Part shown: in pieces, positions 942 to 22,480 of the stretch
Numbering within the stretch: position 1 is the first letter of the stretch
How the letters are laid out: every line of letters begins with the position of its first letter
Assembly (NCBI GenBank): GCA_947172415.1
Contig: OX359201.1
Coordinates: forward strand, 2,852,001-2,916,000
Origin: Chondrosia reniformis
Lineage: Eukaryota > Porifera > Demospongiae > Chondrillida > Chondrillidae
Reading direction: 5' to 3'
Length of the DNA stretch: 64,000 bases
Translations under genes and position numbers: made by a program
The notes under the pieces: model-generated
What the model was told of the DNA's origin: nothing
Seen by the model: only the letters and a program-made list of their open reading frames with translations
The model's database searches: none

Positions 942-1736
942 CATGACAATGAAAATTTTCAAAACAGGCTGTGGCCTAGGTGCACCAGTGGTGAAGAAAA
1001 CCCTGGGTCAACCAGAATAGGTGATTCCACTGGTGCCTCACAGGTAGATGTACCTGAATGTAATAACCCTTCTTCGGTCCCCATGACGGGCCAACCAGCC
1101 CTCTGGACCGAGGAAATTGATTGCTTTGAGCGATCTGAACCCAAAAGAGCTGGCTATCAAAAGCGTTTAGAGCGGGAATGGCTGAGCAAATACCCACATT
1201 TGCCTCAGACCGGTCGAACCCTTGCCTTCCAAGCCAAAAGGAGCTTGGTAGGAGACGGAGTACTGCAAGTAACGGGTAGCCGAGATTTAGATTTGGTTAA
1301 TGATGCACCGCAAGGTGCCTCTAGAAGGAGAAGGATCCAAGGGGTGATCTGGAACCTTCAGAGGGATAATATCCTCATGGAGCTCTGCCGAGAAAGTAAG
1401 CCCATGGAAAAGGGGTATGCCGAGCGGTTGTACCAGGCTTGGAATGCTAAAATGCCAGACCATAAAACCACAAAGGTAGCGCTAACTACGAGAATTAGTA
1501 GAATCCGAAGAGGTCAAGGTCTCTCGAGACTAAACCTTGTGGAACCTGACTCTTGTGGTTTAGCCACCCTAACTGAGACTGTGGAGGAAGGTGTGGGAGC
1601 CTAGGGGCAGGGGGAGCTTCACCAAGTTCAGGCTGTGACTGAACAAAATGGTGAGCTGCCTGCAGCACCTATTGAAACTCCTACAAATGATCATCCTAGT
1701 CCCAGGACAAGTGGCAATGATCAACTGATGCAATTT
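942..1736 (+). pseudogene. RLE-LINE ORF, N-terminal region
   Basis: Frame 3 is open from about 942, has a TAG at 1602-1604, and reads on in the same frame to a second TAG at 1737. An ATG is available at 1083, but the open frame begins further upstream and I cannot fix the true start. The translated region is basic, with a WTEEI and a WNLQRDN motif resembling a Myb-like or helix-rich nucleic-acid-binding N-terminus; I do not see C2H2 zinc fingers. By position it would be the DNA-target-binding part of an R2-like protein; that is inference. The path continues in frame 2 from about 1740, so a frameshift lies near 1736. Confidence 0.6.
982..1036. repeat. Short inverted repeat near the 5' end of the RLE-LINE
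   Basis: GCACCAGTGG (982-991) faces CCACTGGTGC (1027-1036) with a 35-bp loop, a perfect 10-bp stem. It lies inside the open N-terminal frame. It may be chance or an RNA structure; function is not known. Confidence 0.45.
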
Positions 1737-1741
1737 TAGGC

Positions 1742-2545
1742 AAAGCAAAAGATGCCTGTCTCCGAAAGAAACCTGGAGATTTCTCTGATAGAAAACCCTG
1801 GGGGACAGTGCGGTTCAACCATGTTGATACGGCACTGCTTCAGGAGGCCAATGATTGGGTGGAGAAAGAGTGGCAGGAAGGCCCTAGGTCGGCCTGGCAC
1901 CTGAACTGCCTAGTCTACTCTGTTGCTGTGGCTGTGAGGGGAAAAACAACCTACGAATCACAGCCATGCAACCAGGGAAGGAAATCGGATAATCAGAAGG
2001 GAAGTAAGAGACAAGAAGGTCACATAAGTGACAGGAAGGCCAAAGGCCTTAGGTTTAGAAGACTGCTTGCCTGGTTGGATGTGGAAATAGCGCGTCAACA
2101 GAATAATAATCCTATGACCAAACGCCAGAAAGTACTCCGAAGAAAGCTTAGGAGGGAGTTCCACTCATTAAACCTGAATGTGCTGATCAGAGCTCGGGAA
2201 CAGACACTGGGGAAACTCAGGGTCTGGACTCTACAAGAGCGAAGATCGGCTGAACGCAGGAAATTCCAGGAACAAAACCACCTTTGGAATACCCAAAGGA
2301 AGTTCCAGATGAATGGCAATGTTCCAACCTCCAATGAAGCTCCCTCAATTGACGTAGTAAGAGACTTTTGGACAAAGATTGTAGGTACTGTTGGTAAGGT
2401 CAACAAAGATGACCCAGGGGTGAAAGAATGGCTAAAGGAAACCAAAACGAGGGTGGGTAGAACCTCCTCTGAAGGTCCCGATAGCATTGATGAGACCAAA
2501 CTGAGGAAAGCCTTGAAAAAAGGCAAAAAGCTGGTCAGCCCCTGG
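1742..2545 (+). pseudogene. RLE-LINE ORF, linker and pre-RT region
   Basis: Frame 2 is open from 1742 with no internal stop. It is rich in Lys, Arg and Gln, probably coiled or helical, and contains no enzyme motif I recognise. It ends in a KKLVSPWAG stretch that runs off the true path. At about 2545 the sense switches to frame 3, where SPGPDGIHNFWWKAL follows. That is the conserved block 0 before the RT fingers in R2/NeSL-type elements. The frameshift therefore sits in the CCCTGGGCCGG run near 2540-2550. Confidence 0.65.
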
Positions 2546-4123
2546 GCCGGATGGCATCCACAATTTTTGGTGGAAAGCACTCCCCTCTGCACAGTCTGCC
2601 TTGGCAGATGTACTACGGAGGGTGGTGAGCGGAGATCTGTCAGTCCCAGACTGGCTTACAAGGGGTCGCACTCTACTCATCCCCAAAAAGGGTGACCCGA
2701 AAAGTGCGGCCAACTACCGACCTATTGCATGTCTGAACACAATGTACAAGGCTGTCACAGCATACATTGCATCAGAATTACTCACTTACACCTACACTGA
2801 TGATCTTTTACCAAAGGCTGAAAGAGCCATGAGAAAAGTGAGGTGGGGCTGTGTGGACTGTCTACTGCTGGATCAATCAATCGGTCTAGATGCCAAAATT
2901 ATGGGCAAGCCACTTAGTGTGGCATGGATCGATTATGAGAAGGCATATGACAGAGTCCCTCACAAGTGGGTGATGAAGGTGCTAAAAACCATCAAGTGCC
3001 CAGGTTGGATCCGGAGGTCTATAGAGCTCTTCTCCAAACACTGGGCTACTGTGCTTGAGTTGAGGACAGCGGGAAAGGTGGTTAGGAGCACCCCTGTTAA
3101 ATATAACAGGGACTCTTCCAAGGAGACTCCTTATCGCCACTCCTCTTTTGTCTGGCCATAGCTCCCATATCCCAAGTTCTTAACAGAACCAAGGGATATA
3201 CCCTCTGGCATAATGGGGAAAGGAACACCATGTCACACTTGCTGTACATGGATGACCTTAAGATATATGCTGGAGGGCCTGATAAACTCAGGGAAGCCAT
3301 GGAATCTGTGGAGAAAACCTCAAATGCCATTGGCATGAGGTTTGGAGTGAGAAAGTGTGGAACAGCTCACATGCAAAAGGGGAAAGTTCTGGCTGGCCCA
3401 GACAACCCTGAACGCAGTGAAGAATCCATAAGGAGCCTTGAAAAAGGTACTACCTATAAGTACCTAGGGCTAGAACAACTGTTTGAGGTAGATGACAGCA
3501 AGGTCAAAGCTTGCTTGATCAATGAATTGAGGAGGAGACTCCACAGAGTGTGGGGCTCTCACCTCAATGGTAAGAATGCTGCAGAAGCCTCTAACATGTT
3601 GTGTGCCTCTCTATTGAGATACTCTTACCCAGTTTTGAAGTGGACTCAAAGTGAGCTTCCAAAACTGGACCGAATGGTGAGAAAGATCATGAGAAAGTAC
3701 CAGTGTCATCACTATAACTCTGCCATTGAAAGAGTGAATTTGCCTCGCTCTCAAGGTGGTAGAGGGCTCTGTAGTTTTCCTTTGGATCACGACAGGGCTG
3801 TTGTGAATCTGGCAAGATACCTCCATACTGCCAATCATCCACTCACAGCTGTTGTGGTTAAACACCAAAAGTGGCTGGATTGCTCAAAGCAGAGGAGGAC
3901 TGCCTTAAAAGAAGCCAGATTGATACTGAGAAGCCACGGAATAGAACTAGAACCGGAAATGTGGCTGAAGACAGATCCCTCACAAAATAGTTTAAGAGAA
4001 TGGAGGAGAGTGGCACGTGAGCTCCGGGAGGCTCAGACTGAAAGGTTAAAAAGTAACCTAGCCGAAAAGTCTCACCAGGGCTCATACCACAGACAATTCA
4101 CAAATAGGGAGTCTTATGTGTGA
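2546..4123 (+). pseudogene. RLE-LINE reverse transcriptase domain
   Basis: The domain reads through frame 3 (2546 to about 3105) and then frame 2 (about 3106-4120). Visible blocks in order: PGPDGIHNFWWK; TLLIPKKGDPKSAANYRPI; the first catalytic Asp in AWIDYEKAYDRVPH; GLFQGDSLSPLLFCLA; and LLYMDDLKIYAG with the catalytic DD pair. These are the standard fingers-palm blocks of a non-LTR RT that primes on nicked target DNA. The frameshift near 3105 falls between the first palm block and GLFQGDS. The ORF is closed by TGA at 4121-4123. The context before and after (SYV*LSEGRLRPQTEALILAAQD) suggests this was a Trp codon (TGG to TGA). The thumb region follows the YMDD block. Confidence 0.85.
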
Positions 4124-4843
4124 CTTTCTGAGGGGAGACTCAGACCTCAAACTGAGGCTCTGATTCTCGCAGCCCAAGATGATGTGCTGCACACTAGGTG
4201 GTACCAAAATAGGATTCTGAAGAATTCTAGCCTCCTAATGTGCAGAGAATGTGGCAAGGCTATGGAAACGGTCAAACACATACTAAACATGTGTGAGCCC
4301 AAGGGAGTTTCTCTCTACAAAGAGAGACATGACCGGGCAATACTGATAGTATTGTGGAGACTGTTGAAAGAATATGGATTCAAGCAGGAAGAGCCCTGGT
4401 ACAAACTAGAAGCAAAACCGGTCTATGAGAATAGGGCTGTCAAAATCTTGTGGGATCCTAGTATCCCTACAGATGATGAAATGACAGAAAGAAGGCCAGA
4501 CTTAGTGGTTGAGGATCGGCTATGTAAGTCCATCTTCATTTTTGAGATGTCAGTTCCTACTGGCAGTAATATTAATGGAAGATGGCAAGAGAAGTTCCAA
4601 AAGTACCAGAAGCTGGCGGCTGATATGAGGAAACAATTTAGGGGCTACCAAATTAAGGTAGTCCCGATGATAATTGGTGCTTTGGGGACAGTGGACACGC
4701 TCCTGGAAGACCTAAGTGGAATTCCAAAGCTGTCAAAAAGTGTAGTAGAAGTGATGAGAGCGATGCAGAGAACTGTTCTCTGCTCGGCTGTAAGGATATT
4801 GAGGCGACATCTATCTGTTGAGGGATTGGGGCCTGGACGATAA
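4124..4843 (+). pseudogene. RLE-LINE zinc knuckle and restriction-like endonuclease
   Basis: It continues in frame 2 after the TGA at 4121. It has a CCHC-type knuckle (MCRECGKAMETVKHILNMC), then a region containing RRPDLVVEDR and, later, FIFEMSVPTGSNIN and EKFQKYQKL. RPD followed by E and K spaced as in PD-(D/E)XK nucleases is the signature of the restriction-like endonuclease that nicks target DNA for target-primed reverse transcription. The real stop is TAA at 4841. Putative catalytic residues look present, so inactivity comes from the upstream frame breaks. Confidence 0.8.
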
Positions 4844-5074: not shown

Positions 5075-5173
5075 AAGTAACAAGGTTCTCCATTAAGGCT
5101 TTTGTTTCTAAAGTAGGTACTATTTGTATGTACTAGTTATAAGTGTATGTTCCTGTTATATTTACTAGTTGTA

Positions 5174-6139
5174 TGTACTAGTTGTATGAACTAGCTGTAT
5201 GTACTGGTTGTAAGAACTAGTTGTATGTACTAGTAGTAGGTACTATTTGTATGTACTAGTTATAAGTGTAGGTTCTTGTTATATGTATTAGTTGTATGTA
5301 CTAGTTGTATGAACTAGCTGAATGTACTAGTTGTATGTACTAGTTGTATGTACTAATTTTATGGACTAAATATATGTACTAGTTATGTACTAATTCCATG
5401 TACTAATTGTATGAACTAGTTGTATGTGGAATTTGTGTGTACTAGTTGTATGTACTACTTGTATGACCTAGTTGTATGGTTTAGTTTTATATACTAGCTG
5501 TATGTACTAGTTGTATGAACTAATTGTATGAACTAGCTGAATATACTAGTCGTACGTACTAGTTGTATGTACTAGTCATATGTACTAGTTACGTACTAGC
5601 TGAATGAAGTACTTGTATGAACTAGTTGCATGAACTAGATGTATGCACTAGTTGCCTGTACTAGTTGTATGAACTAGCTGTATGTACTGGTTGTATGAAC
5701 TAGTTGTATGTACTAGTAGTAGGTACTATTTGTATGTACTAGTTATAAGTGTAGGTTCTTGTTATATGTATTAGTTGTATGTACTAGTTGTATGAACTAG
5801 CTGAATGTACTAGTTGTATGTACTAGTTGTATGTACTAATTTTATGGACTAAATATATGTACTAGTTATGTACTAATTCCATGTACTAATTGTGTGAACT
5901 AGTTGTATGTGGAATTTGTGTGTACTAGTTGTATGTACTACTTGTATGAACTAGTTGTATGTTTTAGTTTTATATACTAGCTGTATGTACTAGTTGTATG
6001 AGCTAATTGTATGAACTAGCTGAATATACTAGTCGTACGTACTAGTTGTATGTACTAGTCATATGTACTAGTTACGTACTAGCTGAATGAAGTACTTGTA
6101 TGAACTAGTTGCATGAACTAGATGTATGCACTAGTTGCC
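5174..6139 (+). repeat. 483-bp higher-order tandem repeat, two copies
   Basis: Copy A is 5174-5656 and copy B is 5657-6139. The marker TAGTAGTAGG falls at 5231 and 5714, and GTCGTACGTA at 5549 and 6032, each 483 bp apart. The copies differ at only scattered bases, while the 13-mers inside each copy differ widely, so the 483-bp unit is a younger amplification. Confidence 0.85.
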
Positions 6140-6788
6140 TGTACTAGTTGTATGAACTAGTAGTATGAACTATTTCTATGTACTAGTTGTATGGACAACT
6201 GGTATGTACTAGTTTTATGTACTAGTTGTATGAACTGGCTGAAAGTACTAGTATTATGTATTAGTTGTATGTACTAGATGTATTTATCAATTCTATGTGC
6301 TAGTTGTATGTGTATGTTCTTGTTATATTTACTAGTTGTATGTACTAGTTGTATGAACTAGCTGTATGTACGGGTTGTATGAACTAGTTGTATATACTAG
6401 TAGTAGGTACTATTTGTATGTACTAGTTATAAGTGTATGTTCCTGTTATATTTACTAGTTGTATGTACTAGTTGTATGAACTAGCTGTATGTACTGGTTG
6501 TATGAACTAGTTGTATGTACTAGTAGTAGGTACTATTTGTATGTACTAGTTATAAGTGTAGGTTCTTGTTATATGTATTAGTTGTATGTACTAGTTGTAT
6601 GAACTAGCTGAAGGTACTAGTTGTATGTACTAGTTGTATGTACTAGTTTTATGTACTAATTTTATGGACTAAATATATGTACTAGTTATGTACTAATTCC
6701 ATGTACTAATTGTATATAGAATTTGTGTGTACTAGTTGTATGTACTACTTGTATGAACTAGTTGTATGTTTTAGTTTTATATACTATA

Positions 6789-7445
6789 GCTGTATGTACT
6801 AGTTGTATGAACTAATTGTATGAACTAGCTGAATATACTAGTCGTACGTACTAGTTGTATGTACTAGTCATATGTACTAGTTACGTACTAGCTGAATGAA
6901 GTACTTGTATGAACTAGTTGCATGAACTAGATGTATGCACTAGTTGCCTGTACTAGTTGTATGAACTAGTAGTATGAACTATTTCTATGTACTAGTTGTA
7001 TTGACAACTTGTATGTACTAGTTGTATGAACTAATTGTATGAACTAGCTGAATATACTAGTCGTACGTACTAGTTGTATGTACTAGTCATATGTACTAGT
7101 TACGTACTAGCTGAATGAAGTACTTGTATGAACTAGTTGCATGAACTAGATGTATGCACTAGTTGCCTGTACTAGTTGTATGAACTAGTAGTATGGACTA
7201 TTTCTATGTACTAGTTGTATTGACAACTTGTATGTACTAGTTGTATGAACTAATTGTATGAACTAGCTGAATATACTAGTCGTACGTACTAGTTGTATGT
7301 ACTAATCATATGTACTAGTTACGTACTAGCTGAATGAAGTACTTGTATGAACTAGTTGCATGAACTAGATGTATGCACTAGTTGCCTGTACTAGTTGTAT
7401 GAACTAGTAGTATGAACTATTTCTATGTACTAGTTGTATTGACAA
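6789..7445 (+). repeat. 219-bp higher-order tandem repeat, three copies
   Basis: The marker GTCGTACGTA occurs at 6841, 7060 and 7279, exactly 219 bp apart twice. Copies are about 6789-7007, 7008-7226 and 7227-7445, nearly identical (for example GAACTATT against GGACTATT at the end of copies 1 and 2). The unit is a subset of the 483-bp unit, so it arose by a second, nested amplification. Confidence 0.85.
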
Positions 7446-8565
7446 ATTGTATGTACTAGTTTTATGGATTAGTTGTATGAACTAGCTGTATGTAGTAGTT
7501 GTATGTACTAGTCAAAGGTACTATTTCGATGTACTGGTTATAAGTGTATGTTCTTGTTATATGTACTAGTTTTATATACTAGTTGTATGAACTAGCTGAA
7601 TGTACTAGTTGTATGTACTAGTTGTAAGTACTAGTTTTATGGACTAGGAATTATGTACTATTTATGTACTAATTCCATGTACTAATTGTATGAACTAGTT
7701 GTATGGCCTAGTTGTATGTACTAGTATTATGTATTAGTTGTATGTACTAGATGTATTTATCAATTCTATGTGCTAGTTGTATGTGTATGTTCCTGTTATA
7801 TTTACTAGTTGTATGTACTAGTTGTATGAACTAGCTGTATGTACCGGTTGTATGAACTAGTTGTATTTACTAGTAGTAGGTACTATTTGTATGTACTAGT
7901 TATAAGTGTATGTTCCTGTTATATTTACTAGTTGTATTTACTAGTTGTATGAACTAGCTGTATGTACTGGTTGTATGAACTAGTTGTATGTACTAGTAGT
8001 AGGTACTATTTTTAAGTACTAGTTATAAGTGTAGGTTCTTGTTATATGTATTAGTTGTATGTACTAGTTGTATGAACTAGCTGAATGTACTAGTTGTATG
8101 TACTAGTTGTATGTACTAGTTTTATGTACTACATATATGTACAAGTTATGTACTAATTCTTTGTAATAGTTGTATGAACAAGTTGTTATATGTTCTAGTT
8201 CTATGTACTATTTTTATGTACAAATAGTATTAACTAGTTGTATGTCCTATTTGTATTTACTGGTTGTAGGTACTAGTTGCATGTACTAGTTGTGTGTACT
8301 ACTTATATGTTCTAGTTACCGGTTTATGTTGTAGTAATTTGTACTAGTTGCATGAACTAGTTGTAAGTACTATTTCTATGTTCTAGATATATGTGTATGT
8401 CCTAATGATATGTACTACTTGTATGTACTAGTTGTATGTTCCAGTTGTACTTACTAGGTATATGTACTAGTTGTATCAACCACTTGTATGTACTTGTTGT
8501 ATGTACTAGTTGTATGTACTAGTTATGTGCTAGTTGTAGGTTCTATTTCTATGAATTAGTGGATA

Positions 8566-9376
8566 TTATTACAATGACGTCATCACTCATGAACGAACAG
8601 GTTCTCCCCAAGAATGGCGTACTCTAATCAGAGTATATATGTTGAACAAGCGACCTCTCGAAGACAGCCTTCAATTGTGGCTCATTGCCAGTGCGAAATC
8701 GCTGTGCATACGCAATAGGTTGTTGCCCGTTTATGCATGCTCTCACACGTGGTACAATGATTGTTTGATGATGGGATTTAAATCATAAACATTCGGGACT
8801 ATGTAATTTTATTTCAAGTGTGTGTGCATGTATAACCCTTTTCTGCTTATTTGTCACATTTTGCATGTTTGTAGACGTGTATATACGTATGTTCATTTAC
8901 ATATTTGTAATGGAATGGGTCTGTTCAGGCGTGGTTGCTAAGGTAAAAAATCGTTCCTTTTAAGGTATGTAAATAAAACCTTTTTGAATTTATTCTGTAG
9001 ATGGTGAAAGGAAGCTGATGATTCTGAATACAATTTGGTAAGTAAACTTAGTTTGTAAATCAGCCTTCAAGTAACAGTGGATTGCAGTAGAAAAGTAATA
9101 ACTCATGTCATAAGTTTTCAGAAGCCTTTCCAACTTTCCATTAACTGCTGGTGTGAAGAGCAGACTTCCCATGACAGAACTATGATATACATATTTATAT
9201 AGGCATAGGAACAACCTGCAAAATGTTCACCTCTATACAGGCTGAGATTGAATACAAGATTGAAGCTACATATAGGGCATAAGTCTAAACTTGTGTTAGA
9301 TACCTTCATGTTATAGTTATATGCTTGTTCTACCGAGTTACAATCTGTGCATACACTGTAGTACATAAGTGTAATA
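8566..9376. other. Non-satellite flank of the CACTA island, no gene seen
   Basis: AT-rich unique sequence starting at about ATTATTACAATGACGTCATC, with a TGACGTCA palindrome near 8571. I see no reading frame with recognisable motifs. It lies downstream of the minus-strand transposase and would be its 3' flank. I could not see an unambiguous CACTA-type terminal repeat. Confidence 0.5.
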
Positions 9377-11139
9377 TTATCTATAGACCTTGCTTGTGAT
9401 AGAATAAACAAAGAGGTATTGATCAACTGGATTCCTTCCAATATTTGGATTTAAAAAGCCATAACCTGGAGTGAACTTCCTTTCGAAGTGCAAAATTGGT
9501 ATAAATTATATCTTGCTTTTTAGCCTTGGTTTGTTCTTGTAAGCTAAAAGTCCTTTCCCATAACATTCACGATTTTTGTTACATATATACCATTCCACTT
9601 TAGCCATACAAATAGTTTCACCAGGTGTAGTGCCTTCCTGTTTTACCTTGTAAGGGTATTTTAGAATGCGCAAAATTTTACCTGCATTAACAGTAGAACT
9701 CTGTACATTAATGTCGGGATTTTCAGCTTGTTTTCATCAAACCATTTAGCTATAACAAAGCAATTTCGTGAAAATTTGTAGCTTGCCACAGTTGCAAAGA
9801 TTTCTCCTGAAATTCTAGCGTAGGCATATGATTCGCACAGGCATAATTTAGATTGTGGAATGTCAAGATATTTTATTGTCTTCTTTAATCAGCTATATAT
9901 GTTTTCAACCTCAACACTGGTAAGGGCAACCATGCCATTTGGTTTTGATAACACTATTATATCATTACTGGTGGACCAATTTAATTCTAAGAGGTCCTCT
10001 AAACAGTTTCCTCGGAATTGTAGAATGGTGTGAAATGAAGGTGGAATGCCTTTTTGGTCACATGATTCTAGTATCTTTTTAAGGAAGGGTATTTCATGTG
10101 ATATGTTAGTAGATATTTCAAATTTGTGAATGATGGAATATAGGTAGGTTTCCATGTTCATCTTCTCCATTATTTGTGTTTCTATTCCTTTCTGGTTAGA
10201 AGGTATAGAGCCTAACATGTCATTGTATCTTTCAAATGCAAATAGCCAGAAAGTGTGAGCTGGTCCAAAATCATGTAGACATTCAGCTAAATGGCAGTGT
10301 ACATGCATGTTGAGCCTAACTTTACAGTCTCCATAAATATCTTCAAATCATTTACAAAATGACAGTAATAAAGCATCTGCCTTTTGGATGTCAGTTTTAG
10401 TTAGCCAAGGCTCAGAAAGGATGCGACAAGCTAACACAAATAGTTCCCAACATCTGTAGTGAGTCAGGGGCAGCTGATCACGCAAGCAGTATAAGGAATA
10501 GGTATTTACCCAATTTTTCCATTGATCAGATATAAATTCTGCAAAGGAAGAAGAAATCTTCTTTGGGATACGTCCAATGCTCACAGGTGTCTTAATAGAT
10601 TCAGCCCTCCCCTGAATTATGGCTAACGACCGTTCATTTAGGTATTCTAATCGTATCCATATGTCCTTCATTATAGCTTTTGCAGTACCTTGAAAAAGAT
10701 TATGCATGGGATCTATGACACAGCTTCTAATAGGGTTAAAATATGGCAATTGGATAAGGGATGTATACTTATTGCCATACAGAGTCTCAAGTTTTGCCCG
10801 GGTTGTTTTATTTTTAGCCTTTTTTATCTGCTCTGATATTCTGCAATGTATCTGAATATCCCTTTTAGAACAAGATTCTCGATTAAAGTCGCCATAATTC
10901 TTTTTCCCTATCTGACCTGGGAAAGTCTTGGCGCATTTTGAGCACCCTAAATTAGCAGAATGACCTTGAATCCACAGGTTTTTCTTGCAGCTGGTATGTC
11001 ACAAGCCACGCATAGTAAAATGCCTCTAATGGTAATTGGAAATTTTGGGGAAAAAGATGTCTTTAGCTTAAAACCTTTCCAAAGTGTTTGAAGTTCATCT
11101 ACTAATGGTTTTATATACTTCCCTAAATAATCTATCAGT
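9377..11139 (-). pseudogene. CACTA/EnSpm-type transposase, decayed
   Basis: Reading on the minus strand from about 11139 gives KYIKPLVDELQTLWKGF, then ILLCVACDIPAARK, a CSKC pair with GQIGKKNYGDF, then VIDPMHNLFQGTAK, FISDQWKNW, LLSFCK, NMHVHCHLAECLHDFGP and AFERYNDMLGS, and a C-terminal part with YARISGEIF, MAKVEWY and FERKFTPGYG. This succession, especially DPMHNLxxGTAK and the HCHLxECxxDFGPxxxFWxFxFERYN block, is the animal CACTA (EnSpm/Tnp2-like) transposase. Breaks: a frameshift near 10970, in-frame TGA at 10348-10350 and at 9889-9891, a frameshift near 9680, and a stop near 9520. Both TGA codons sit inside otherwise continuous homology. The N-terminus is lost upstream of about 11139, where tandem repeats begin. 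Confidence 0.8.
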
Positions 11140-11156
11140 AGTCAGTAAGGCTGCAA

Positions 11157-11250
11157 ACATTGACATCATGCCAGAAATACTGTAAATATTGACATCATGT
11201 ATGACAGAAATGCTGTAAACATTGACATCACCCAGAAGATTTGTGCTAAG
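11157..11250. repeat. Short tandem repeat with ATTGACATCA core
   Basis: Three copies of an ACATTGACATCATG-like core, separated by GCCAGAAATACTGTA-like spacers, about 31-38 bp apart. It abuts the decayed end of the transposase. Confidence 0.65.
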
Positions 11251-11261
11251 TCTGAAAGTCT

Positions 11262-11690
11262 GTATGCATTTGTGCAGTAATGTATAAGCATGAGTGCCCA
11301 ATCGCCAATCAAGGGAAAGATAGGCAACCCGTGACACATTCAACTATGTCTGCATGTGTGTGCAGTAGTATGAGTGCCCGATCGCCAGTCAAGGGAATGA
11401 TAGGCAACCCGTGACACATTCAACTAAGTCTGCATGTGTGTGCAGTGGTGTATGAAGCATAAGTGCCCGATCGCCAGTCAAAGAAATGATAGGCAACCTG
11501 TGACACATTCAACTATGTCTGCATGTGTGGGCAGTAGTATGAGTGCCCGATGGCCAGTCAAGGGAATGATAGACAACCCGTGACACATTCAACTAAGTCT
11601 GTATGTCTGTGCAGTAGTGTATGAAGCATAAGTGCCCGATCGACAGTCAAAGAAATAATAGGCAACCTGTGACACATTGCATGGGCTCTA
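11262..11690. repeat. 169-bp dimeric tandem repeat (80 + 89 bp)
   Basis: The motif GTGACACATT recurs at 11331, 11411, 11500, 11580 and 11669, with spacing 80, 89, 80, 89. The 89-bp version carries an extra TATGAAGCATA stretch, while the 80-bp version has AGTATGAG there. The true repeat is therefore a 169-bp dimer of two related monomers, each with TGCCCGATCGCCAGTCA, AGGCAACC and GTCTGCATGTGTG. It lies between transposase and kinase and has no coding content. Confidence 0.85.
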
Positions 11691-11741
11691 GTTGTAATAT
11701 ACAATAGCAAAATAGATACTATATATAAGTCTTAATTAAAG

Positions 11742-12833
11742 TTACTGGAAAGTGTCATTGTAACAAGCCACCTCTTCTGAAGGTTTTTGCATAATGTGAC
11801 TGGTATCGGGATGTCTTTTTTCATGGCACTCCAGACAAGCTTCTAGTTTTTTATTTAGTACACCATTGGTAAGTTTTGCTTTCTTTACTTCATGAATGAT
11901 TCGACCTAAGGAATACACATCACTTTTATAATTTTGTGTTGCGAGGCTATCTATTAGGTCAGGGGCTATTTGGGGATGCTTTTTCCTGTGTTTTTCTTTT
12001 TCTTCACTTGGAAGTTTAAATGTCTTAGCCCTTTTGATGTGGCAGGCTTTTCCAAAGTCTGAAACAACTGCTTTGATAGAATTATCACCTGTATAGCTCT
12101 AACTTAAAAGAATATTGCTTCCCTTTATGTCATTATGTAGAATCTCTCTACCATGCATATAACTGATTCCCTCAGTGATCTGGATGAGAAACATTGTCCA
12201 AACGTTCTTTCCCAGATGATGTTGTGACCCCATTGCCTCTGATAGGTTACATGAGTTATTTGCTACTGTGTGTAGTGACATAACAATAGCTTTTCTAACC
12301 AGAAAATTCCAAAAAGAGGTGGGAAATGACTGCTTCCAGATAAAAGCTTCATTATGTTTGCCTCATGAGTTATAGATTCATCTGTACAGTTGGTAGATGC
12401 CATCTTTTTAACACACACCTGGTACACACCTTGATAGTGTGCAGTTTTACATTCACCAAACACTCCTTTGCCTAAAGTAGAAGCTTGACTGAAGCAGAGA
12501 GCTTCCTTGCAAATGTTTACTATACTTCTCTCATCTCTTAACAAAGGTAAACCTTTCCTGACAGCCTTCCCCTTACAGTACCAACTCTTGTACCAGGCCC
12601 ATTTAGAGCATATGGCTTCAATTTTTCTTATACATGTTGCCTATATAGTAAGTATAAATTCATATATTCACCTCTATTTTCACTTATAGTATAACTCTAG
12701 CATTTGCGCCTGCAACTTTGTACCTTTTCCAGATCCTAAATTTATCTTTTGTTTCCTTCAGCTGTGTCAGTAGTTCCTTAATCTGCTGACCATTCTTATT
12801 ACAATCCTTCATTAATTGTTGTATCTTTTGCAT
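11742..12833 (-). pseudogene. Protein kinase gene with coiled-coil first exon, probably inactivated
   Basis: Exon 1 (12833-12696) starts at ATG and encodes 46 residues, MQKIQQLMKDCNKNGQQIKE and onward, a predicted coiled coil. A 55-bp GT-AG intron (12695-12641) joins in phase 0 to exon 2. Exon 2 has LPLLRDERSIVNICKEA, the Gly-rich loop GKGVFGE, the lysine in VCVKKM, the helix-C Glu in HEANIMKLL, the catalytic loop LHNDIKGSNILL (HND in place of HRD), DFG in VSDFGKA, APD in place of APE, and SDVYSLGRII. It ends at TAA near 11742. All key catalytic residues are visible. A frameshift lies near 12285 (FGIFWLEK to KAIVMSLH) and an in-frame TAG at 12099-12101, so this copy is probably dead unless these are sequence errors. 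The catalytic-loop motifs fit a protein kinase; the group is not clear (TKL-like is a guess). Confidence 0.75.
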
Positions 12834-13088
12834 TTTGTTGAACCTTTTCTTAGCAGACTTAGTTTAGACATTTTGCGCCAAAAATAAAATATTCTGATTA
12901 CACCCACTGGGATTTACTCTTTACTCAATAATAGTAGTGGGTGTGTAACTTTCTTACGTCACTCTGTTTAAACTGTTAGCAATAACATCATGATATCACC
13001 ATCGTAACCCCTCCAAAATTCCATTTTAATTGCATCTTGAGGTTGCCACCAGTTTTTCTAGCTTTTAGTGATTTAATAGTCTTGGACA
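12834..13088. promoter_or_regulatory. Shared intergenic region between two head-to-head genes
   Basis: A 255-bp stretch separates the ATG of the kinase (12833, minus) from the ATG of the plus-strand gene (13089). It is AT-rich and includes GCGCCAAAAATAAAATATTC near 12875-12895. The divergent layout implies a bidirectional promoter; this is inferred from geometry only. Confidence 0.45.
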
Positions 13089-14263
13089 ATGACTGATACT
13101 AATGTTATAGAAAATCTAGCCATTCTTTTGCAAGAAGTCTAAAAGGAACTTCAAGATTGTATAAAGGAAAACAAAGAAATTCAACAGCAAAATAGGCAGT
13201 ATTCTCAGCAGCTGAAGAAGATTGAAGATTGCATGAATAATGAAACTTTAGTTCTGAACAAGGCTGCAGAAAAGGCTGACCCTTCTCTCTATGTAAAGGT
13301 ATTATGCTCAATATGCCCAATTTATATTTGCTTTATTTTGCTTTATATTGGCTGCCTTAATTTTTCACAGAGTGTCGTGAGAAGGGTTTACAAGAAGTTG
13401 CTTTCCAATGAAGGCTTTGAAGGGTGGAAGTTTTCTTTGGGGTGAGCCCTTACATGAATTTAGCACTTTGACTTCAATTATGTGATTTTCACTAAGGGGA
13501 CATCTTTAATATATATAGGTTTACTGAGGAGGCTAATCAAAGAATTAGTTTGAAACTCTCCAAAGAAGTTGCATCTCTTCTAGGACCAGGTGCTAGAGAA
13601 AGTGCTATTCAAGGTACATATACAGCTTTCCTGTTTTCATTATGGTTTGTACTTTTATTATTTGTCTGTTGTAGAAGCCTGTAAAATCCATTTTCGCAAT
13701 CTTAAAATTGATGAGAAACGAAAAGTAAATGGTATGATTGCTCAACATAGAAGGAAGAATAAATTAAAAAAAGAGGCTAAGGACTATAAGTATCAGAAAT
13801 GCTAGTAGAAATTCCAATGAACATTGTACAAGCTGTTTTCCTTCCCATTTTAGAAATTAGACTTCAGAACAGGTGCCATTAGTGACACTGCCTTGGTGAT
13901 GTCTTGGTCAAGCAAGTTTTAAAGGAAGATGACAGAGCTCTTGCACCAAGATTACATGTCATCAGAGGAATCAGACTCTGAAAACCATCAGTTCAGAGTA
14001 AAACAGTTACCTTCGCTTAAGAATAAATACATAAAGGGGTTTAGAGATATTGATATTGTAGGGGAAAGTAGGTTAAGTGCTAATGCAAGGAGGTTAAGAC
14101 TGCCAGGGTAGGTACAGATAATATTAGTTGTAGGCCGGTACCACTTAAGGCACATAATTGGTACCTTAAGCGGTATTACAGGAATAGGCCTATATTGACA
14201 TCAACCCCCAACACCAGTAACAGCTGCTCTTTCACAGCTGGGAGTAGCATCACTGAAGCATAG
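13089..14263 (+). pseudogene. Multi-exon gene of unknown function, coiled-coil N-terminus
   Basis: Exon 1 is 13089-13298, with ATG and an N-terminal Gln/Lys/Glu-rich coiled coil; it contains a TAA at 13137-13143 in QEV*KELQD. Intron 13299-13370 (GT-AG, 72 bp). Exon 2 is 13371-13441 (VVRRVYKKLLSNEGFEGWKF). Intron 13442-13518 (77 bp). Exon 3 is 13519-13613 (FTEEANQRISLKLSKEVASL). Intron 13614-13674 (61 bp). Exon 4 is 13675 onward (KIHFRNLKIDEKRKVNGMIA, then a basic stretch) and either stops at 13803 or splices at TATAA/GTATCAG. Downstream, DYMSSEESDSE (near 13950) and SCRPVPLKAHNWYLKRYY (near 14130) continue what I recall as the C-terminal half of an uncharacterised animal family with an acidic SSEES patch. 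Three introns keep frame exactly, which supports a real gene. The stop in exon 1 and a frame break near 14108 suggest decay. Confidence 0.6.
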
Positions 14264-14569
14264 CAAGTAGCAGTGAGTTTTGTACATTTGTTCCCTTTAG
14301 ATAAACAATTTCTTTTTCCTTTCTTGTATATATAGCTATAGGTCCAACATCCTGAAGAAACTCTAACCTTTTTCTCATGTCAATCTAACCTACATGCATT
14401 TCATATAGTTAATTAACTTCAACACTATATAGACAATTATATTTTTTGTCTTTTGTATAATGTGTAATATCTGATTTACTTTTAATATCTAATTTAATGT
14501 GCATATATAAATTCAATTACGATATGGATGTGGAAAGGTTACAGAACTTAAATATGGCTTCCTTTGTGT
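14264..14569. other. AT-rich spacer, nothing recognised
   Basis: Low-complexity AT-rich sequence after the plus-strand gene, with several TATAT runs. No motif or reading frame is supported. Confidence 0.5.
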
Positions 14570-14766
14570 TTCAACTATGAAACTTATAGGAAACCTGATG
14601 ATTCATACGAATTTCACAAAATGGAAACTTGGAAACCGGGCACATCATGAATTGAAAACTTGTGAAACTTGGTTTTTCACACAGAGCATGAAACCCAATG
14701 AAACTAAGCATTTCATTGGGCATCACATTGGTTTCACACCGTGTAAAACCTGTGATATGGTCTTGT
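14570..14766. repeat. Cluster of GAAAC(C/T) motifs in both orientations
   Basis: Within about 190 bp the motif GAAAC followed by C or T occurs at least seven times directly (near 14578, 14589, 14629, 14638, 14664, 14690, 14699), with inverted forms near 14709 and 14731. It includes a perfect 10-bp inverted repeat CCCAATGAAA/TTTCATTGGG (14694-14703 and 14711-14720). It sits at the edge of the CACTA island. CACTA elements carry subterminal repeat arrays bound by an accessory protein, and this could be such an array. The cluster is seen; the role is inferred. Confidence 0.5.
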
Positions 14767-17700
14767 GTGTATGTACTAGATGTATGAACTAGCAGAATGT
14801 ACTAGTTGCATGTACTAGTTGTAAGTACTAGTTTTATGGACTAATTATACGTAGTAGTTTTATGTACTAATTCCTTGTACTAATTGTATGAATTAGTTGT
14901 ATGTACTACTTGTATGTACTAGTTGTATGGACTAGTTGTATGTACTAGTTATGTACTAGTTGTATGTACTATATAGTTGAATGAACTAGTTGTATGTACT
15001 AGTTAAATTTTTATGTATTAGTTATATGTAGTAGGTGTGTGTACTAGTTATATGTACTAGTTGCAAGTACTAGTTGTATTCACTAGTTGTATGGACTAGT
15101 ACTAGCTATATTTACTAGTTGTGGGTACTAGTTGTTTGTGGTAGTTCTATGTAGTAGTTCTATGTACAAATTGTATGAACTAGTTGTGTGTTCTAGTTGT
15201 ATTAATATATACTAGTTGTATGTACTAGTTTTATGTTCTTGTTGTAGATTCTTGTACTAGTTATACTAGGTACCAGGAAGGTACTAGTCGTATGTACTAG
15301 AAACTAGTTTTATGTACTACTTCTATGCACTAGAAATGAATCACTTGTGTGTACAGGTTGTATGTACTAGTTGCATTTACTAGGTGTTTGTACTAGTTAT
15401 ATGTTTTAATTATTAGTTGTATGAACTAGTTATATGCACTAGTTCTATGTACTACTTGTGTTTACTACATGTATGTACTAGTTATATGTAGTAGTTGTAT
15501 GGTCTAGGTATATGTACTAGTTGTATTTACTAGTTTGTAGTTGTAGCACTAGTTGTTTGTACTACTTATATGTAATATGCGTATGTACTATTTATATGTT
15601 AAATTTTTATGTATTAGTTATAGGTAGTAGGTGTGTGTACTAGTTATATGTACTAGTTGCAAGTACTAGTTGTATTCGCTAGTTGTATGGAATAGTACTA
15701 GCTATATTTACTAGTTGTAGGTACTAGTTGTATGTGGTAGTTGTATGTAGTAGTTCTATGTACAAATGAACTGTATGAACAAGTTGTGTGTTCTAGTTGT
15801 ATGTATATACTAGTTGTATCTACTAGCTATGTACTAGTTGTATTTTCTAGTTGTATGTACTAGTTTTATGTACTTGTTGTAGATTCTTGCACTTGTTATA
15901 CTAGGTACTAGGAAGGTACTAGTTGTATGTACTTGAAACTAGTTTTATGTACTAGTTGTATGTACTACTTTTATGAAGTAGTTGCATGTACTAGTTGTAT
16001 GTATCAGTTTTATGTAGTCCTTCTATGTACTAGTTGTATGTACTAGTTGTGTGTACTGATTTTACTTACTATTTATATGTACTAGTAAAATTTTTATGTT
16101 CTCGTTATATGCACTAGTGTTATGTACAATTTGTATGAAGTAGATGTAAGCTCTATTTGTATATACTAGTTTAATGTACTAGTTGTATGTATTCGTTACC
16201 GGTTGTTAGTACTAGTTGTATGTTCCGGTTTTATGTACTAGTTCTAGTTTTATTTTCTAGTTGTATATGCTAGTTGTATGTACTAGTACTAGTAAGCTTG
16301 AGTACTAGTTAATCTATTTACTCTGTAGGCACTAGAAAATGTAAAACTAGTTGGAGTTCTAGTTTAATATCCTAGTTGTATGTACTATTTATATGTACTA
16401 ATTTTATGTGTATGTTTCAATCATAGGTACTAGTTTTAATTACAAGTTGTATGAAGTAGTTGTTAGCCTAGTTGTATGTGCTAGTTGTATGTACTAGTTG
16501 TATGTACTAGTTGTATATACTAGTTGTGAGTACTAGCTATATTTTGTAGTAGTATAAACTAGTTGAATGTACTAGTACTAGTTATACCAGATATTAAGTA
16601 GGTATTAGTTGAATGCACAAGTACTAGTTATATTAAATATTTGTAGGTACTACTTATATTTACTAGTCGAATGTAATAGTTGCATGTACTAATTGTATAT
16701 AATAGTTGTATGTAGCCGTTGTATGTACTAGTTATGTACAAGTTGTATGTAATAGTTGTATGTACTAGTAGGATTAACTAGTGGAATGTACAAGTAAAGG
16801 CAATATATATTAACTGTAGGCAATAGTTGTATGTACTATTTGTATGTACTAGTTGTATGTACTAGGTGTATGTACTAGTTATGGGTACTAGTTGTAAGTT
16901 CTAGTAGTAGTAATACCAGATACTAAGCAGGTATTAGTTGTATGTAAAAGTTCTAGTTATATTATATAGTTGTAGGTACTAGTTATATGTACTATCTGAA
17001 TGTAATAATTGCATGTATTAATTATATATAATAATTGTATGTACCAGTTTTATGTACTAGTTATGTACTAGCTGTATGTACTGGCTGTATGTACTAGTAG
17101 TATTAACTAGTGGTATGTACTAGTACTGGTAATATTTACTAACTGTAGGCACTAGTTGTATGTACCAGTTGTACATACTAGCACTGGTTATATTTACTAG
17201 TTGTAGGTACTAGTTGAATGTAATAGTTGCATGAACTAGTTGTATGTACTAGTATTAGTTATATTTATTAGTTGTAAGTATTAGTTGTGTGTACTAGTTG
17301 TATGTAGTAGTTGTATGTTCTAAGTGTATGAACTAGTTTTATGTACTAGTTGTATGTACTTGTTATATACTAGTTGTATGTATTAGTTGTATATATTAGT
17401 TGTATGTACTGGTTGTGTGTACTAGTGGTATGTATTAACTGTATGTATTAGCTATGTAGTAGATGCATGTACTAGTTCTAATAACTAGTTGCATTTACTA
17501 GTACTGGTAATATTTACTAGTTGTAGGTACTAGTTTTATGCACTAGTTGTATGTACTAGTGCAAGCTATATTTACTAATTATAGGTATTAGTTTTATGTA
17601 GTAGCTCTATGTTCTAATTGTTTGAACTAGTTTTATGTACAATTGTATGTACTAGTTATATGTACTCTTTGTATGTACTAATTGTATGTACTAAGTGTAT

Positions 17701-19290
17701 GTACTATTTATAGGTACCAGTTATATATGTATGTACTAGTTATATGCACAAGTTAGGTACTATTTATAGGTACTAGTTTTAAGTTCTAGTACTAGTAAAA
17801 TTAGGTACTAAGTAGGTACTTGTTGTAAGTACTAATTGCATATACTAGTTGTATGTACTAGTTGTATACCAGTTGTATGTACACGTTGTATGTGCTAGTT
17901 GTAACAACTAGTAATATGTTCTAGTACAAGTTATATTTAATCGTTATATTTACTAGTTGTATGTTCTAGTACAAAGTATCTATATTAGTTATATTTAAAA
18001 GTTATATTTACTAGTTGTTTGCACTGGTTGTAGCACTAATTGTATGGACTAGTTGTATGTACTAGATGTATATACTAATTGTGTGAAATAATTATACATC
18101 ATAGTAGGAGTTCTAGTATAATGTACTAGTTGTATGGACTATATATATGTACTAGGTAAATGTGTATGTTATAGTCATAGGTACTAGTTGTATGTGCTAG
18201 TTGTATGAACTATATAGTGGTATGTACTAGTTATATATACTATGGTATATACTATTTATACGGTCTAGTTGTATGTACTATTTGTATATACTAGTATATG
18301 TACTACTTGCAGATTCTAGAACTAGTTATACTAGGTTATAGGTAGGTGCTAGTTGTAGGTACTAGCACTAGTTATATTTATTAGTTGTAGGTACTAATTG
18401 TATGTACTAGTTGTATGTACTAGTTGTATGTACTAGTTGTAAGAACTAGTCATTTACTAGTTGTAAGTAGTAGTTGTATGTTCTAAATGTATGAACTAGT
18501 TGTATGTAACACCTGTATGGACTAATTATATACTAGGTGTATGGACTTGTTGTATGTACTAGTTATATGTCCTAGTTGTATTTACTACTTGTATGTCCTA
18601 ATTGTATGTACTACTTGTATGTACTAGTTGTGTGTACTAGATGTATGTACTAGTAATGTGTACTAGTTGTAGATTCTAGTACTAGTAATACTAGATATTA
18701 GGTAGGTATTAGTTGAATGTACAAGTACTAGTTATATGTATTTGTAGGTACTACTTATATGTACTAGTCGAATGTAATAGTTGCTTGTACTAACAGTATA
18801 TAATTGTTGTATGTCCTAGTTGTATGTACTAGTTAATTGTTGTACAATCTAGTTGTATGTACGAGTTGTATGTACTATTTGTATGTGCTAATTGTATGTA
18901 CAAATTGTGTGTACTAGGTGTATGTAGTAGTTGTATGTTCTATTTGCTTTAACTAGTTTTATATCCTAGTTGAATGTGCTACTTGTATGTACTAGTTATT
19001 TACTAGCTGAATGTACTAGTTGCATGTACTAGTAGTATTAACTAGTGGTATGTACTAGTACTGGTAATATTTACTAACTGTAGGCACTAGTTGTATGTAC
19101 TAGTTGTACATACTAGCACTGGTTATATTTACTAGTTGTAGGCACTAGTTGGGTGTACTAGCACTAGTTATATTTACTAGTTGTAGGTACTAGTTGCATG
19201 GACATGTTGAATGTTATAATTGTATGTACTAATTGTATGTACTAGTTGTGTGTACCACCTGTATGGACTAGTTATATACTGGGTGTATGT
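14767..19290 (+). repeat. 13-bp satellite, block 3
   Basis: Same unit and orientation. It contains longer shared words such as TACTGGTAATATTTACTAACTGTAGGCACTAG that recur in later blocks (38 kb, 48.9 kb, 59 kb), so it belongs to the same long higher-order pattern. No gene. Confidence 0.95.
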
Positions 19291-19758: not shown

Positions 19759-20734
19759 TCAGAGTTCTGTGGAAGAGGCCAGTTGGGGGGAGACCATAGC
19801 CAGTTCGTTTTGTGAGGGGCGTATATAACTCTGGTAAGCCGAGCTCTCCCACCGGCCTAACCGTTTGATGGTTGACTCTGGCACACCTGCTATACTTGCT
19901 GTGGTGGCTGCCCCTATCCGAAAACTATGGCCGTTAAACAAAGAACCGTTCAGTCCGGAAGCAGACAGTGCCCCTTGCACACTGGCAGTAAACTGCCTGC
20001 CCCTCAAAGGCTCTCCCTCTTCGGAGCAAAACAGAGGACCGGCAGCTGGGCCTCTCACAGTTAAGTAGTCTAACACGGCTGCCACTGCACACAAGTCTGA
20101 ATTGGTGCTGCCTATGGTAATTGATGTATATACCCTTTCTGAACTGATCAGTTTTGGAAACTTTAATTAGCAACGAGATTGTCCAAAAGGGGGACGATGT
20201 ATCCACTGACACATCGGCCAGGGACAAATGGAGCTGTGGGTTGAACTCTGCCCCATCTGGGACCAAGAATTCCCCGCACCTGAGGAATCCAAAAAATCCC
20301 ACACAACATGCTGCCCAGATCAATAAATTAGAGTAAACTCTGCTTCCTGAACTGAGGGTTGACTTAATACGGCACATGATAGATGCTGTGATGGGCAATC
20401 TTGTGATCCTAGGGCCCCTATTGGCCTGGTGACGTTTAATCCCCCTGAGAAGTAGTGTCATATGCGATGAATGAAAAGAGGGATTGCTCCCATGTGGGTC
20501 AGATAATAGCTTATTGTGACGGAGAGCTGCTAGATATGACTGGATAGTTGATACACTCAACCCCTCTGCACCCAGGAAAGCCACAAACAAAGTAACCTTT
20601 TCTGTAGTTAATGGCTCGGGTGAAAGATGGAATGCTCCCGTAAATGCTAAATATCGGTTCAGCCCTGCTTGATAAACCTTCCTTGTAAAGGGAGCTAATC
20701 CTTCCTCCAAAAACTGCTGCAAAGTTGCTTCCAC
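19759..20734 (-). pseudogene. Tyrosine recombinase of the DIRS-like element
   Basis: The N-terminal part (from 20734) has FTRKVYQAGLNRYLAF and LSVSTIQSYLAALRH, a core-binding (SAM-like) domain. The catalytic Arg lies in FFGFLRCGEF. After a frameshift near 20090, the C-terminal part has GHSFRIGAATTASIAG (HxxR) and LGRWESSAYQSYIRP, with the Trp/His position and the nucleophilic Tyr. These are the R...HxxR...W/H...Y residues of the phage-integrase-like family. The family cuts and rejoins DNA to insert a circular cDNA. The first half overlaps the RNase H end by about 40 bp in another frame, as in related elements. The frameshift makes this copy inactive. Confidence 0.85.
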
Positions 20735-21190
20735 TCCTCTGATATCCAGCTGTGGCGAGGATTGAGCAGCAGGTCCACTAGAACTGAATTGACCTGTGAG
20801 GGAGATGAAGAGGCGAATGGATGAGTTCTAAGAAAAACTGATGCTCTATTGCGAGATAGATCATCTGCCCCCCTATTCAGTCTCCCAGCTATGTGCTCTG
20901 CCCTCAAGCGAAAGTCGTGCTTTGCCATGAAGAAGGCCAGACAGCATAGTAGATGAGCTGCTAATGGGTCACGAGCATGAAGGCGGTTAACCTGAGACAC
21001 AGCTGCACTGTTGTCGGAGTGGCACACTACATAGGACCTGGACCACTCCTGACCCCAGACGGCACATGCCAAGGTGATTGGGAACAATTCCTTTAGTGCT
21101 ATAGAGTGCATATGGAGTGCGCTACTCTCAGTCCATTGCCACTGGAGCCAGTGAGGTAGAGACCACGCCCGCAACCCCATGACCCCGATG
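20695..21190 (-). pseudogene. RNase H domain of the DIRS-like element
   Basis: Motifs: MHSIALKELFPITLA (catalytic Glu), VVCHSDNSAAVSQVNR (Asp) and GRLNRGADDLSR (Asp). The first catalytic Asp would be in the TDASGSWGCG block, but here the sequence reads LFTNASGSWGCG (about 21190-21230), Asp to Asn. A frameshift lies at about 21185 within the GCGGGCG run. The domain removes RNA from the cDNA hybrid. The Asn substitution would itself be expected to cripple activity. Confidence 0.8.
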
Positions 21191-22110
21191 CATTTGTAAA
21201 TAGATGGTGCTTTGGCTCTTGCAGCAGGAGGAACTGGTGTACTGATATACCTGACCAGTGAGAGCACATGATGCTCCACCAGGCAAGGTCACATCTTGCT
21301 GCCCAATTGAGGCGCCGTGTTTGCCCTGGCTGCATAGTGTTTGACAAAGGGAATAGATTATTGAGAAAGGCTTTCCCTAGGGGAAGGACATGGCAAGCAT
21401 GCACTAAATACCCTAACAATGACTGCAGCTGGTGCACGTCCCGAATGCACTTGGTCCTCCTCCATGTATCCAGCAGGGATCTGAGAGCAACCATCTTGTT
21501 CTCAGGTAGTTTGAGGGACATGTTGATTGAATTGAGTTCAATACCTAGGAAGATCAACTGTGTGACAGGACCTTCCAGTTTGTCCTCAGCAATGGGCACC
21601 CCCAGCTCTTTGCATACCTGTAATGTGATATCCAGTGCCCGGCGACACTCGATGGAATCTGGTGGTCCCAGTATCAAGAAATCATCTAAGTAGTGGATGA
21701 TGTAACGCACACCTCTAGATCTCAGAATCCATTCCAATGCCTCGGCCAATGCGTTAAAGATGGCGGGTGCTGAAGCTAGGCCGAATGGCAATTGGCAATC
21801 AACGTAAACTGAGTTCTGCCAGGAGATTCCCAAGAAGCGACGGTCCTCGGGATGAATTGGGACCATCCTGTATGCCTCCCGGAGGTCAATTTTAGCCAGC
21901 AGGGATCTCTTACCCAGAAAGTGCATGAGTGAAGCACCATCATCTGGGGAGGAGTAGGAAACATGCGTCAATTCTCGGTGAAGGTTGTCGTTAATGCTTT
22001 TACCCTTGGGAGAGGATAGATCCACTATGACTCATTTTCCTGGGGTTTTCTTTGGAATAACTGCCATGTGGCTAGTAATCACATTGGGGCACTCCTGTGG
22101 ATGTAATGGA
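21190..22110 (-). pseudogene. Reverse transcriptase of the DIRS-like element
   Basis: Blocks in order: VIPKKTPGK, VDLSSPKGKSINDN, AKIDLREAYRMVPIHP (catalytic Asp), LPFGLASAPAIFN and IIHYLDDFLILGP (YLDD centre), then IFLGIELNS and the connection. The frame is open from about 22109 but carries a TGA at 22032-22034, exactly where this family has Trp (PGKW). It therefore looks like TGG to TGA. Upstream, another frameshift near 22110 separates it from the linker that precedes it. Confidence 0.85.
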
Positions 22111-22480
22111 CCCTTTGAGCTTTTATGAACTCACAGATGACATCTCCTTTGCTCTGAGAAGACCGGGAATTTCCTCTTGATGAACCGCATTCCGGCTCAG
22201 ATACCAAGCCGATGCGAAAGCCCTCCTGAATACCTGCAATCAGGCATTGTGTCCACTGCCTGTCAGGATGTGCTTCTAAAGCTCTCTTCCATTGATTGGT
22301 AACCAATGGGGTGGATATCGGAGCGCCCAACACAGGCTGGGGTGTACCATGCCCCTGCTCTTTGTGCTCTGACCCTAAGATCTGCAGTTGGCAGAACTGT
22401 TTAGCCAGAATGGGCGTCAACATTGTGTATGGCGGGGTTGGGCCTACCTCACAGGTCGAGGAGCCTATAAATGCGAACAT
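22111..22480 (-). pseudogene. DIRS-like element, region N-terminal to RT
   Basis: Minus-strand frame with STPLVTNQWKRALEAHPD and LIAGIQEGFRIGL, which is the recognisable HPD...GIxxGFRIG block preceding RT in DIRS-type polyproteins. It leads to a Lys/Gln-rich region with VICEFIKAQRV, then shifts frame to PLHPQECPNVITSHM before VIPKK. Between this block and the gag stop at 22701 there is a possible intron (donor near 22744, acceptor near 22480), suggested only by a gap in homology. Confidence 0.6.

Follow-up and report, generated by a model that had tools for sequence, protein, structure and literature searches.

Can a CACTA-type transposon carry a protein kinase of its own? The question is raised by an island on chromosome 13 of the sponge Chondrosia reniformis, where a fragment of a CACTA transposase lies with a kinase gene and a coiled-coil (CC) gene of several exons, all within the 64,000-nucleotide stretch of DNA analysed here (the window). 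Satellite flanks the island on both sides, as an earlier note on this DNA had described; it forms 13-bp arrays at 5144–8553 and 14768–19277 (TRF). The gene trio that the note reported is present in outline, although transposase, kinase and CC gene are all broken. We think it likely that the island represents a dead CACTA-type transposon, from a group that carries a CC accessory gene and a kinase besides or instead of a transposase. Its features, with the evidence for each, are as follows.

7216–8553, no strand: left satellite within the ∼98% identical duplicated block common to chromosome 9 (C9) (pair alignment)
8554–9376, no strand: non-satellite stretch past the transposase, expected site of the other terminus; no repeat matching the right end or the K1 ends
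9377–11126, minus strand: decayed CACTA transposase lacking its N-terminal ∼310 residues, with an in-frame TGA at 10345–10347 (tblastn with eight transposases of the same genome)
11271–11678, no strand: 80-bp tandem array at the place of the missing transposase N-terminal part (TRF)
11758–12871, minus strand: protein kinase gene, its first exon basic and coiled-coil-like; a frameshift near 12294, TAG at 12099–12101 (PF00069; two copies compared)
12872–13088, no strand: 217-bp intergenic stretch between the head-to-head CC and kinase genes (sequence; K1 gene starts)
13089–14111, plus strand: putative CC accessory gene, broken (two loci genome-wide; K1 homologue; same exon layout in F1 and K1)
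14467–14767, no strand: right terminal region with GAAAC/GTTTC subterminal motifs, terminus ...GGTCTTGTG (inward 5'-CACAAGACC...) (motif count; recurrence at C5)
14768–15010, no strand: right satellite within the duplicated block (pair alignment)

The sole other copy of the island that was found lies on chromosome 9. It is ∼98% identical, and it looks like a segmental duplication rather than a second insertion, since the similarity continues into the satellite on either side. The chromosome 9 copy is ∼249 bp longer at the 80-bp tandem array. Differences between the copies fall at codon positions 1/2/3 as 4/8/2 in the transposase and 4/4/5 in the kinase; the coding parts diverge like non-coding DNA, and the island genes are therefore without visible selection. 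No Rfam match was found anywhere in the window.

Eight transposase ORFs of this genome served as tblastn queries, and all eight match the island from 11126–11114 down to ∼10150, with two of the eight reaching 9730, which bears out the claim of a decayed minus-strand CACTA transposase; homology is demonstrated to 9730, and the extension to ∼9389 was drawn by eye. By these matches the island has the tnp2-type transposase of CACTA/EnSpm elements, at 45.8% identity to that of family F1 (below), and such matches number 68 genome-wide. The island fragments give no match to Pfam PF02992, as most of the region for that domain is gone. The TGA, a frameshift near 10966 and the loss of the first ∼310 residues are common to both island copies.

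The kinase, with its pieces joined by X, matches PF00069 at E 4.2e-23 and shows the motifs GKGVFG, VCVKKM, HND, DFG and APD. It had been described as having all catalytic motifs, and the catalytic residues are indeed kept, but the reading frame is not intact: neither island copy has an uninterrupted kinase domain, because the frameshift and the in-frame TAG are found in both. The best PDB matches are EGFR (E 5e-12) and LCK (E 1e-10). Like animal TKL/IRAK-type and Src-type kinases, the sponge kinase has a domain with HxD, DFG and APE-type motifs; unlike them, it has a basic, coiled-coil-like N-terminus and an HND motif, is mobile, and is only distantly similar to solved kinases. Scans of a viral collection revealed no relative of the kinase or of the CC gene.

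The exons of the CC gene lie at ∼13089–13298, 13371–13441, 13519–13613, 13675–13805 and ∼13920–14111 (limits by eye), with the small introns and coiled-coil-like exon 1 that had been claimed for it. Each copy has a defect that the other lacks, a stop in exon 1 on chromosome 13 and a 1-nt deletion in exon 4 on chromosome 9. A query made of the first four exons finds two loci genome-wide, with eight matches; a homologue is present in the K1 family (tblastn E 5.8e-6), and no relative turned up when prokaryote genomes were scanned with the CC alignment. The divergent layout of the CC and kinase genes stands as first reported, although by our reading their start codons are 217 bp apart, and the reported 255-bp promoter is approached (∼255 bp) only from the second methionine of the kinase.

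A cluster of GAAAC motifs had been noted at one edge of the island, and the right edge holds nine GAAAC/GTTTC sites in 14467–14767 (shuffle mean 0.64; 0/2000 shuffles as high), with none in 8554–8854. The CC-side terminus is located at 14767. The last 89 bp of the island recur at C5:4524875–4524963, ending at the same point with a different flank, and the terminus reads CACAAG, not CACTA/G. The earlier note had proposed looking for CACTA repeats at both ends; only the right terminus was located, and terminal-repeat searches across both edges gave only short, chance-like matches for the left. A TGT followed by CACA near 8853, picked out by eye as a left end, was set aside as likely chance. Because the left terminus was not found, the trio falls short of proof as one element.

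The kinase and CC pair recurs in K1, a 5.83-kb family of three copies with terminal repeats and 3-bp target duplications, which contains a kinase of the island lineage and a CC homologue placed head-to-head with it. Two of the copies (5834 and 5832 bp) are 99.8% identical over 5844 aligned bp. The ends are CACAGGATG...CATCCTGTG, inverted at 9/9, and read CACAG instead of the CACT[AG] of CACTA terminal inverted repeats. The flanks are TTA/TTA, TTA/TTA and AAT/AAT, a 3-bp duplication in 3/3 copies (the third read at its ends only). Because the left flanks of the two TTA copies have TAC.TTA in common, the AAT copy is the clearest duplication. In register, the CC-side termini of the island and K1 agree at 16/27 positions (3/100000 shuffles as high), and the spacing of the K1 kinase and CC genes, at 209 bp, compares with 217 bp in the island. 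The K1 kinase, predicted at 351 aa, seems intact in both of the copies that were read (PF00069 E 4.2e-21; best PDB match IRAK4, E 7e-9). In both, the domain is uninterrupted and has the catalytic K, E, D and N, DFG and APE of a putatively active kinase. No match to the F1 transposase (tblastn) and no such ORF was found in the K1 locus, and K1 would be non-autonomous, without a transposase of its own.

Other families link the CC gene to the transposase. F1 is an 8.94-kb element in which a CC gene lies head-to-head with a 915-aa transposase (PF02992 E 2.8e-13); with its tnp2 transposase, CACTG ends (CACTGCAAAA/CACTGGAAAA) and a 3-bp target duplication (TAT, seen in the single copy for which both ends were read), it has the features of CACTA/EnSpm. 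In F4 a Transposase_21 (tnp2) transposase is likewise head-to-head with a CC gene. Both of these CACTA families have a CC gene of the same layout and no kinase within the stretches read. A putative element on chromosome 4 holds all three genes, CC, transposase (PF02992 E 1e-16) and kinase, between CACTG-type ends, CACTGCAAAA and CACTGGAAAA, identical to those of F1; the placement of these ends rests on the match to F1, because similarity continues past both ends of the stretch fetched, and the block may be a single element or just a segmental duplication. Its flanking triplets, ATA/AGA, are unequal, and the two copies read share flanks as parts of a longer duplication. The kinases there have an in-frame TAG in 3/3. 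The earlier note had proposed a search for further loci with these three genes in the same order; the trio recurs on chromosome 4, but in a different order, with the kinase 5' of the transposase in the island and 3' of it on chromosome 4.

BLAST did not detect the homology of the CC gene to that of F1, which rests on exon layout, common to the island, F1 and K1, and on motifs. Since same-layout CC genes adjoin the transposase head-to-head in two CACTA families that show no kinase where they were read, the CC product is very probably a CACTA accessory (TnpA-like) protein, a reading based on position, coiled-coil-like N-terminus and shared layout. The finding of CC counterparts head-to-head with the transposases of F1, F4 and the chromosome 4 element fits the TnpA-like partner envisaged in the earlier note.

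A genome-wide search with the kinase gave 91 matches, the best of which, after the island copies, are K1 (three), chromosome 4 (three) and a relic on chromosome 1, with E values from 6e-29 to 9e-8; the kinase ranked directly below them has E 1.4e-6. Of 14 places of the kinase lineage, six (three of nine groups, by our own grouping) have one of 61 transposase places no more than 5.4 kb away, compared with 0/126 Pfam-best kinase places within 10 kb in the control (nearest 82 kb). The independent evidence for linkage is thinner than 3/9, as the island group, one of the three linked groups, was also the search seed, and the chromosome 1 relic kinase is 66–83% identical to that of chromosome 4; for at least two of nine groups, P = 0.0014. 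No transposase match lies near the other six groups, which are K1 and five relics from chromosomes 1 and 2. The idea of a kinase travelling with CACTA-type elements holds for the relatives, K1 and chromosome 4, but not for the island copy itself: its genes are dead, CACTA repeats were not found at both ends, and its single other copy appears to be a duplication flanked by satellite. A kinase pair standing alone at a conserved, non-mobile locus would have spoken against it; the K1 pair sits inside a mobile element. We found no kinase-bearing CACTA element described in the open-access literature.

In maize En/Spm, TnpA binds motifs near the element ends, which it bridges or regulates, and it is an alternative splice product. 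The sponge elements resemble En/Spm (TnpA/TnpD) in the tnp2 (Transposase_21) transposase of F1, F4 and chromosome 4, in the CACTG ends and 3-bp target duplication of F1, in the repeated subterminal motifs of K1 and the island, and in having a second, coiled-coil gene. They differ in that this gene is separate and divergently transcribed, that a protein kinase is added, and that the K1 and island ends read CACAG/CACAA. The recurring gene set, the K1 ends and target duplications, the homology and the head-to-head arrangement are observed; the biochemical steps that follow are our inference. A transposase, from the element itself or in trans, would cut at the terminal repeats of live relatives; the CC protein, by analogy with TnpA, may bind the GAAAC-type subterminal motifs and bridge or regulate the ends. 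The kinase would be expressed from the shared head-to-head promoter region, and its targets might be the transposase, the accessory protein, or a host protein of repair or the cell cycle; by phosphorylating them it would control when the element moves. The island presumably lost its genes within satellite, and the satellite-bounded block would later have been copied between chromosomes 13 and 9.

A host kinase might instead have been picked up once by a CACTA element and carried with no role in transposition, a history we consider rather unlikely. CACTA elements are known to carry host gene fragments, as reported for soybean Tgm-Express (PMC1947982), where CACTA ends likewise enclose non-transposase coding sequence, and several of the sponge kinase relics are decayed. 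Those soybean passengers are captured fragments, whereas the sponge kinase is a whole gene that recurs with the accessory gene in diverged families. The K1 kinase, moreover, seems to be complete: it has a coiled-coil-like exon of its own, and its splice sites are regular. Catalytic motifs persist among the island, K1 and chromosome 4 kinases at ∼30–33% identity, and two or more types of element have the kinase together with the accessory gene.

It is similarly doubtful that the island is two elements, a K1-like kinase/CC element inserted by chance beside an unrelated, already dead transposase fragment in satellite. Such a mosaic would suit the missing left terminus, the abrupt end of the transposase at 11126 next to a tandem array, and the lack of a transposase in K1. 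However, the stretch that separates the kinase from the transposase has no GAAAC cluster (the 300-bp bins starting at 11100 and 11400 contain 0 sites), the part that the transposase lacks does not lie beyond the kinase/CC pair, where there is satellite, and the chromosome 4 element holds all three genes within a single pair of ends. That the pair is an ordinary bidirectional pair of sponge genes embedded in satellite beside an incidental transposase is very improbable and largely refuted, for although Chondrosia reniformis has many kinases (1147 first-look candidates), these genes are dead in both island copies and their closest relatives belong to mobile elements bounded by terminal repeats and target duplications.

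Returning to the reading of the island as a dead member of a kinase-bearing CACTA-type group, we tentatively propose, at somewhat less than even confidence, that this animal group encodes a dedicated kinase which forms, head-to-head with the accessory protein, a two-gene control module, retained across diverged families and movable without a transposase gene. DNA transposons of eukaryotes are generally regarded as borrowing the signalling of their hosts. If the proposal is right, the module would give these elements a phosphorylation switch encoded by themselves, with which to control transposition or steer host repair, and a kinase of the group's own poses directly the question of whether the element times itself by phosphorylation; K1, with apparently intact genes and nearly identical copies, offers a testable case. 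The comparisons also suggest that the accessory gene of these CACTA elements is recognisable by its exon layout and a C-terminal acidic-serine motif.

The island lies between blocks of 13-bp satellite on its left and right. From right to left it consists of:

Terminus with GAAAC/GTTTC motifs
Plus strand, multi-exon coiled-coil (CC) gene
217-bp gap
Minus strand, kinase
80-bp tandem array
Minus strand, transposase fragment

All three genes are broken, with lesions mostly common to the chromosome 9 copy, the one further copy found, and the transposase is without ∼310 N-terminal residues. The genome searched comprised 117.38 Mb in 15 contigs, the window being 13:2852001-2916000; the Chondrosia reniformis total is given as 117.37 Mb in PMC12181767.

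With the broken kinase joined from its pieces as the query, 91 matches were obtained at E ≤ 10. Ranking directly after the island copies were the three copies of K1 (a 5.83-kb family of kinase/CC elements), three chromosome 4 loci and one chromosome 1 relic, all ahead of other kinases; more relics of this lineage are present on chromosomes 1 and 2. A transposase match lies within 5.4 kb at six of the 14 places of this lineage and is absent from the other eight, and none was seen within 10 kb of 126 Pfam-best control kinases, a sample in that just 126 of 1147 first-look candidates were scored. Both strands of a 0.5-Mb stretch of chromosome 14 (595401-1137371) are dense in open kinase frames of ∼280–320 codons, which may reflect a recent expansion of kinases.

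The genome contains 68 matches to the transposase core, at 27–46% identity apart from the island pair, and many of these are held in open frames of 800–920 codons. The F1 family is an ordinary CACTA element of 8.94 kb with CACTG ends and the target site duplication TAT (single copy read at both ends). Its CC gene is upstream of the transposase in divergent orientation, with exons that parallel those of the island, comprising one that is coiled-coil-like, one with VxxVY, and a terminal one bearing an acidic YxSSExS motif. A coiled-coil-like exon is also upstream of, and divergent from, the transposase in the chromosome 4 element and in F4, another CACTA family, and the last exon is similar (motifs compared by eye). 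The CC proteins of F1 and the island are not linked by BLAST, and layout and motifs are thus the basis for their homology. Within the fetched F1 and F4 stretches, tblastn gave no kinase match. Internal tandem arrays occur in CACTA elements here (fetched stretches L050/L051, L052/L053, and L064, which is K1); F1 has long-unit arrays near both ends, F4 an internal array with a unit of ∼98 bp or a fraction thereof, and K1 an array of a 117-bp unit inside the kinase intron.

On chromosome 4 the ends CACTGCAAAA and TTTTCCAGTG, which are those of F1, enclose a CC exon, a transposase and a kinase, and the flanking triplets differ by one base. This block is present in two copies (main pieces 94–99% identical), with similarity passing both ends of the ∼13 kb fetched. 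All three chromosome 4 copies have an in-frame TAG within the kinase match, the third locus being seen as a kinase match alone.

K1 has no transposase, and its movement presumably depends on one supplied in trans. Its two fully read copies are 99.8% identical, have 9-bp inverted ends and 3-bp duplications, and encode the same predicted 351-aa kinase, head-to-head with the CC homologue and 209 bp from it; the third copy, read at its ends only, has a different duplication, AAT. The K1 left end agrees with the island right end at 16 of 27 positions. L074, a fetched stretch of chromosome 7 (2056900-2059400), is a K1 derivative in which the K1 left terminus occurs twice as a direct repeat, at a spacing of 1171 bp and with an identical ten-base sequence ahead of each copy.

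Our simplest reading is that a kinase became linked to the accessory (probably TnpA-like) gene within a group of CACTA-type elements, the island being a dead member. The kinase would have been kept while the proteins diverged to ∼30–33% identity, and in K1 it would have stayed mobile with no transposase gene alongside. Our best guess for the kinase is that it controls transposition via phosphorylation. The main rival is passenger capture of the kinase: plant CACTA elements with captured gene fragments are known (PMC1947982). No kinase-encoding CACTA element was among the matches listed in keyword searches of open-access papers.

The right end of the island's element is real. The last 89 bp are also found on chromosome 5 (89% identity), joined to part of CC exon 4, and this match breaks off at the same point against unrelated flank; the element therefore ends at 14767, adjoining satellite. 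The chromosome 5 stretch (4523000-4525600) is an internally deleted derivative, and also contains a 248-bp inverted repeat. A left terminus of the island was looked for and not found, and the island may thus be two adjacent elements rather than one.

The island and its chromosome 9 copy are ∼98% identical over ∼7.2–15.0 kb of the window, reaching satellite at both sides, with 121 substitutions at similar coding and non-coding rates. Separate genome queries with the joined kinase and with the first four CC exons gave near-identical matches at these two places alone. From its sequence the pair looks like a duplication or exchange between satellite blocks; two separate insertions were set aside, as the identity continues into satellite on both sides.

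The 13-bp TACTAGTTGTATG satellite occupies most of the window's right half (37531-63993). LINE-like elements with reverse transcriptase lie at 906-4843 (PF00078, E 2.7e-11) and 33169-36317 (PF00078, E 1.9e-28). ORFs at 19759-23620, one tyrosine recombinase-like (PF02899, E 3.8e-5) and one reverse transcriptase-like by eye, may form an element of the DIRS type, and an ORF at 53248-53652 presumably resembles the GIY-YIG endonuclease of Penelope-like elements.
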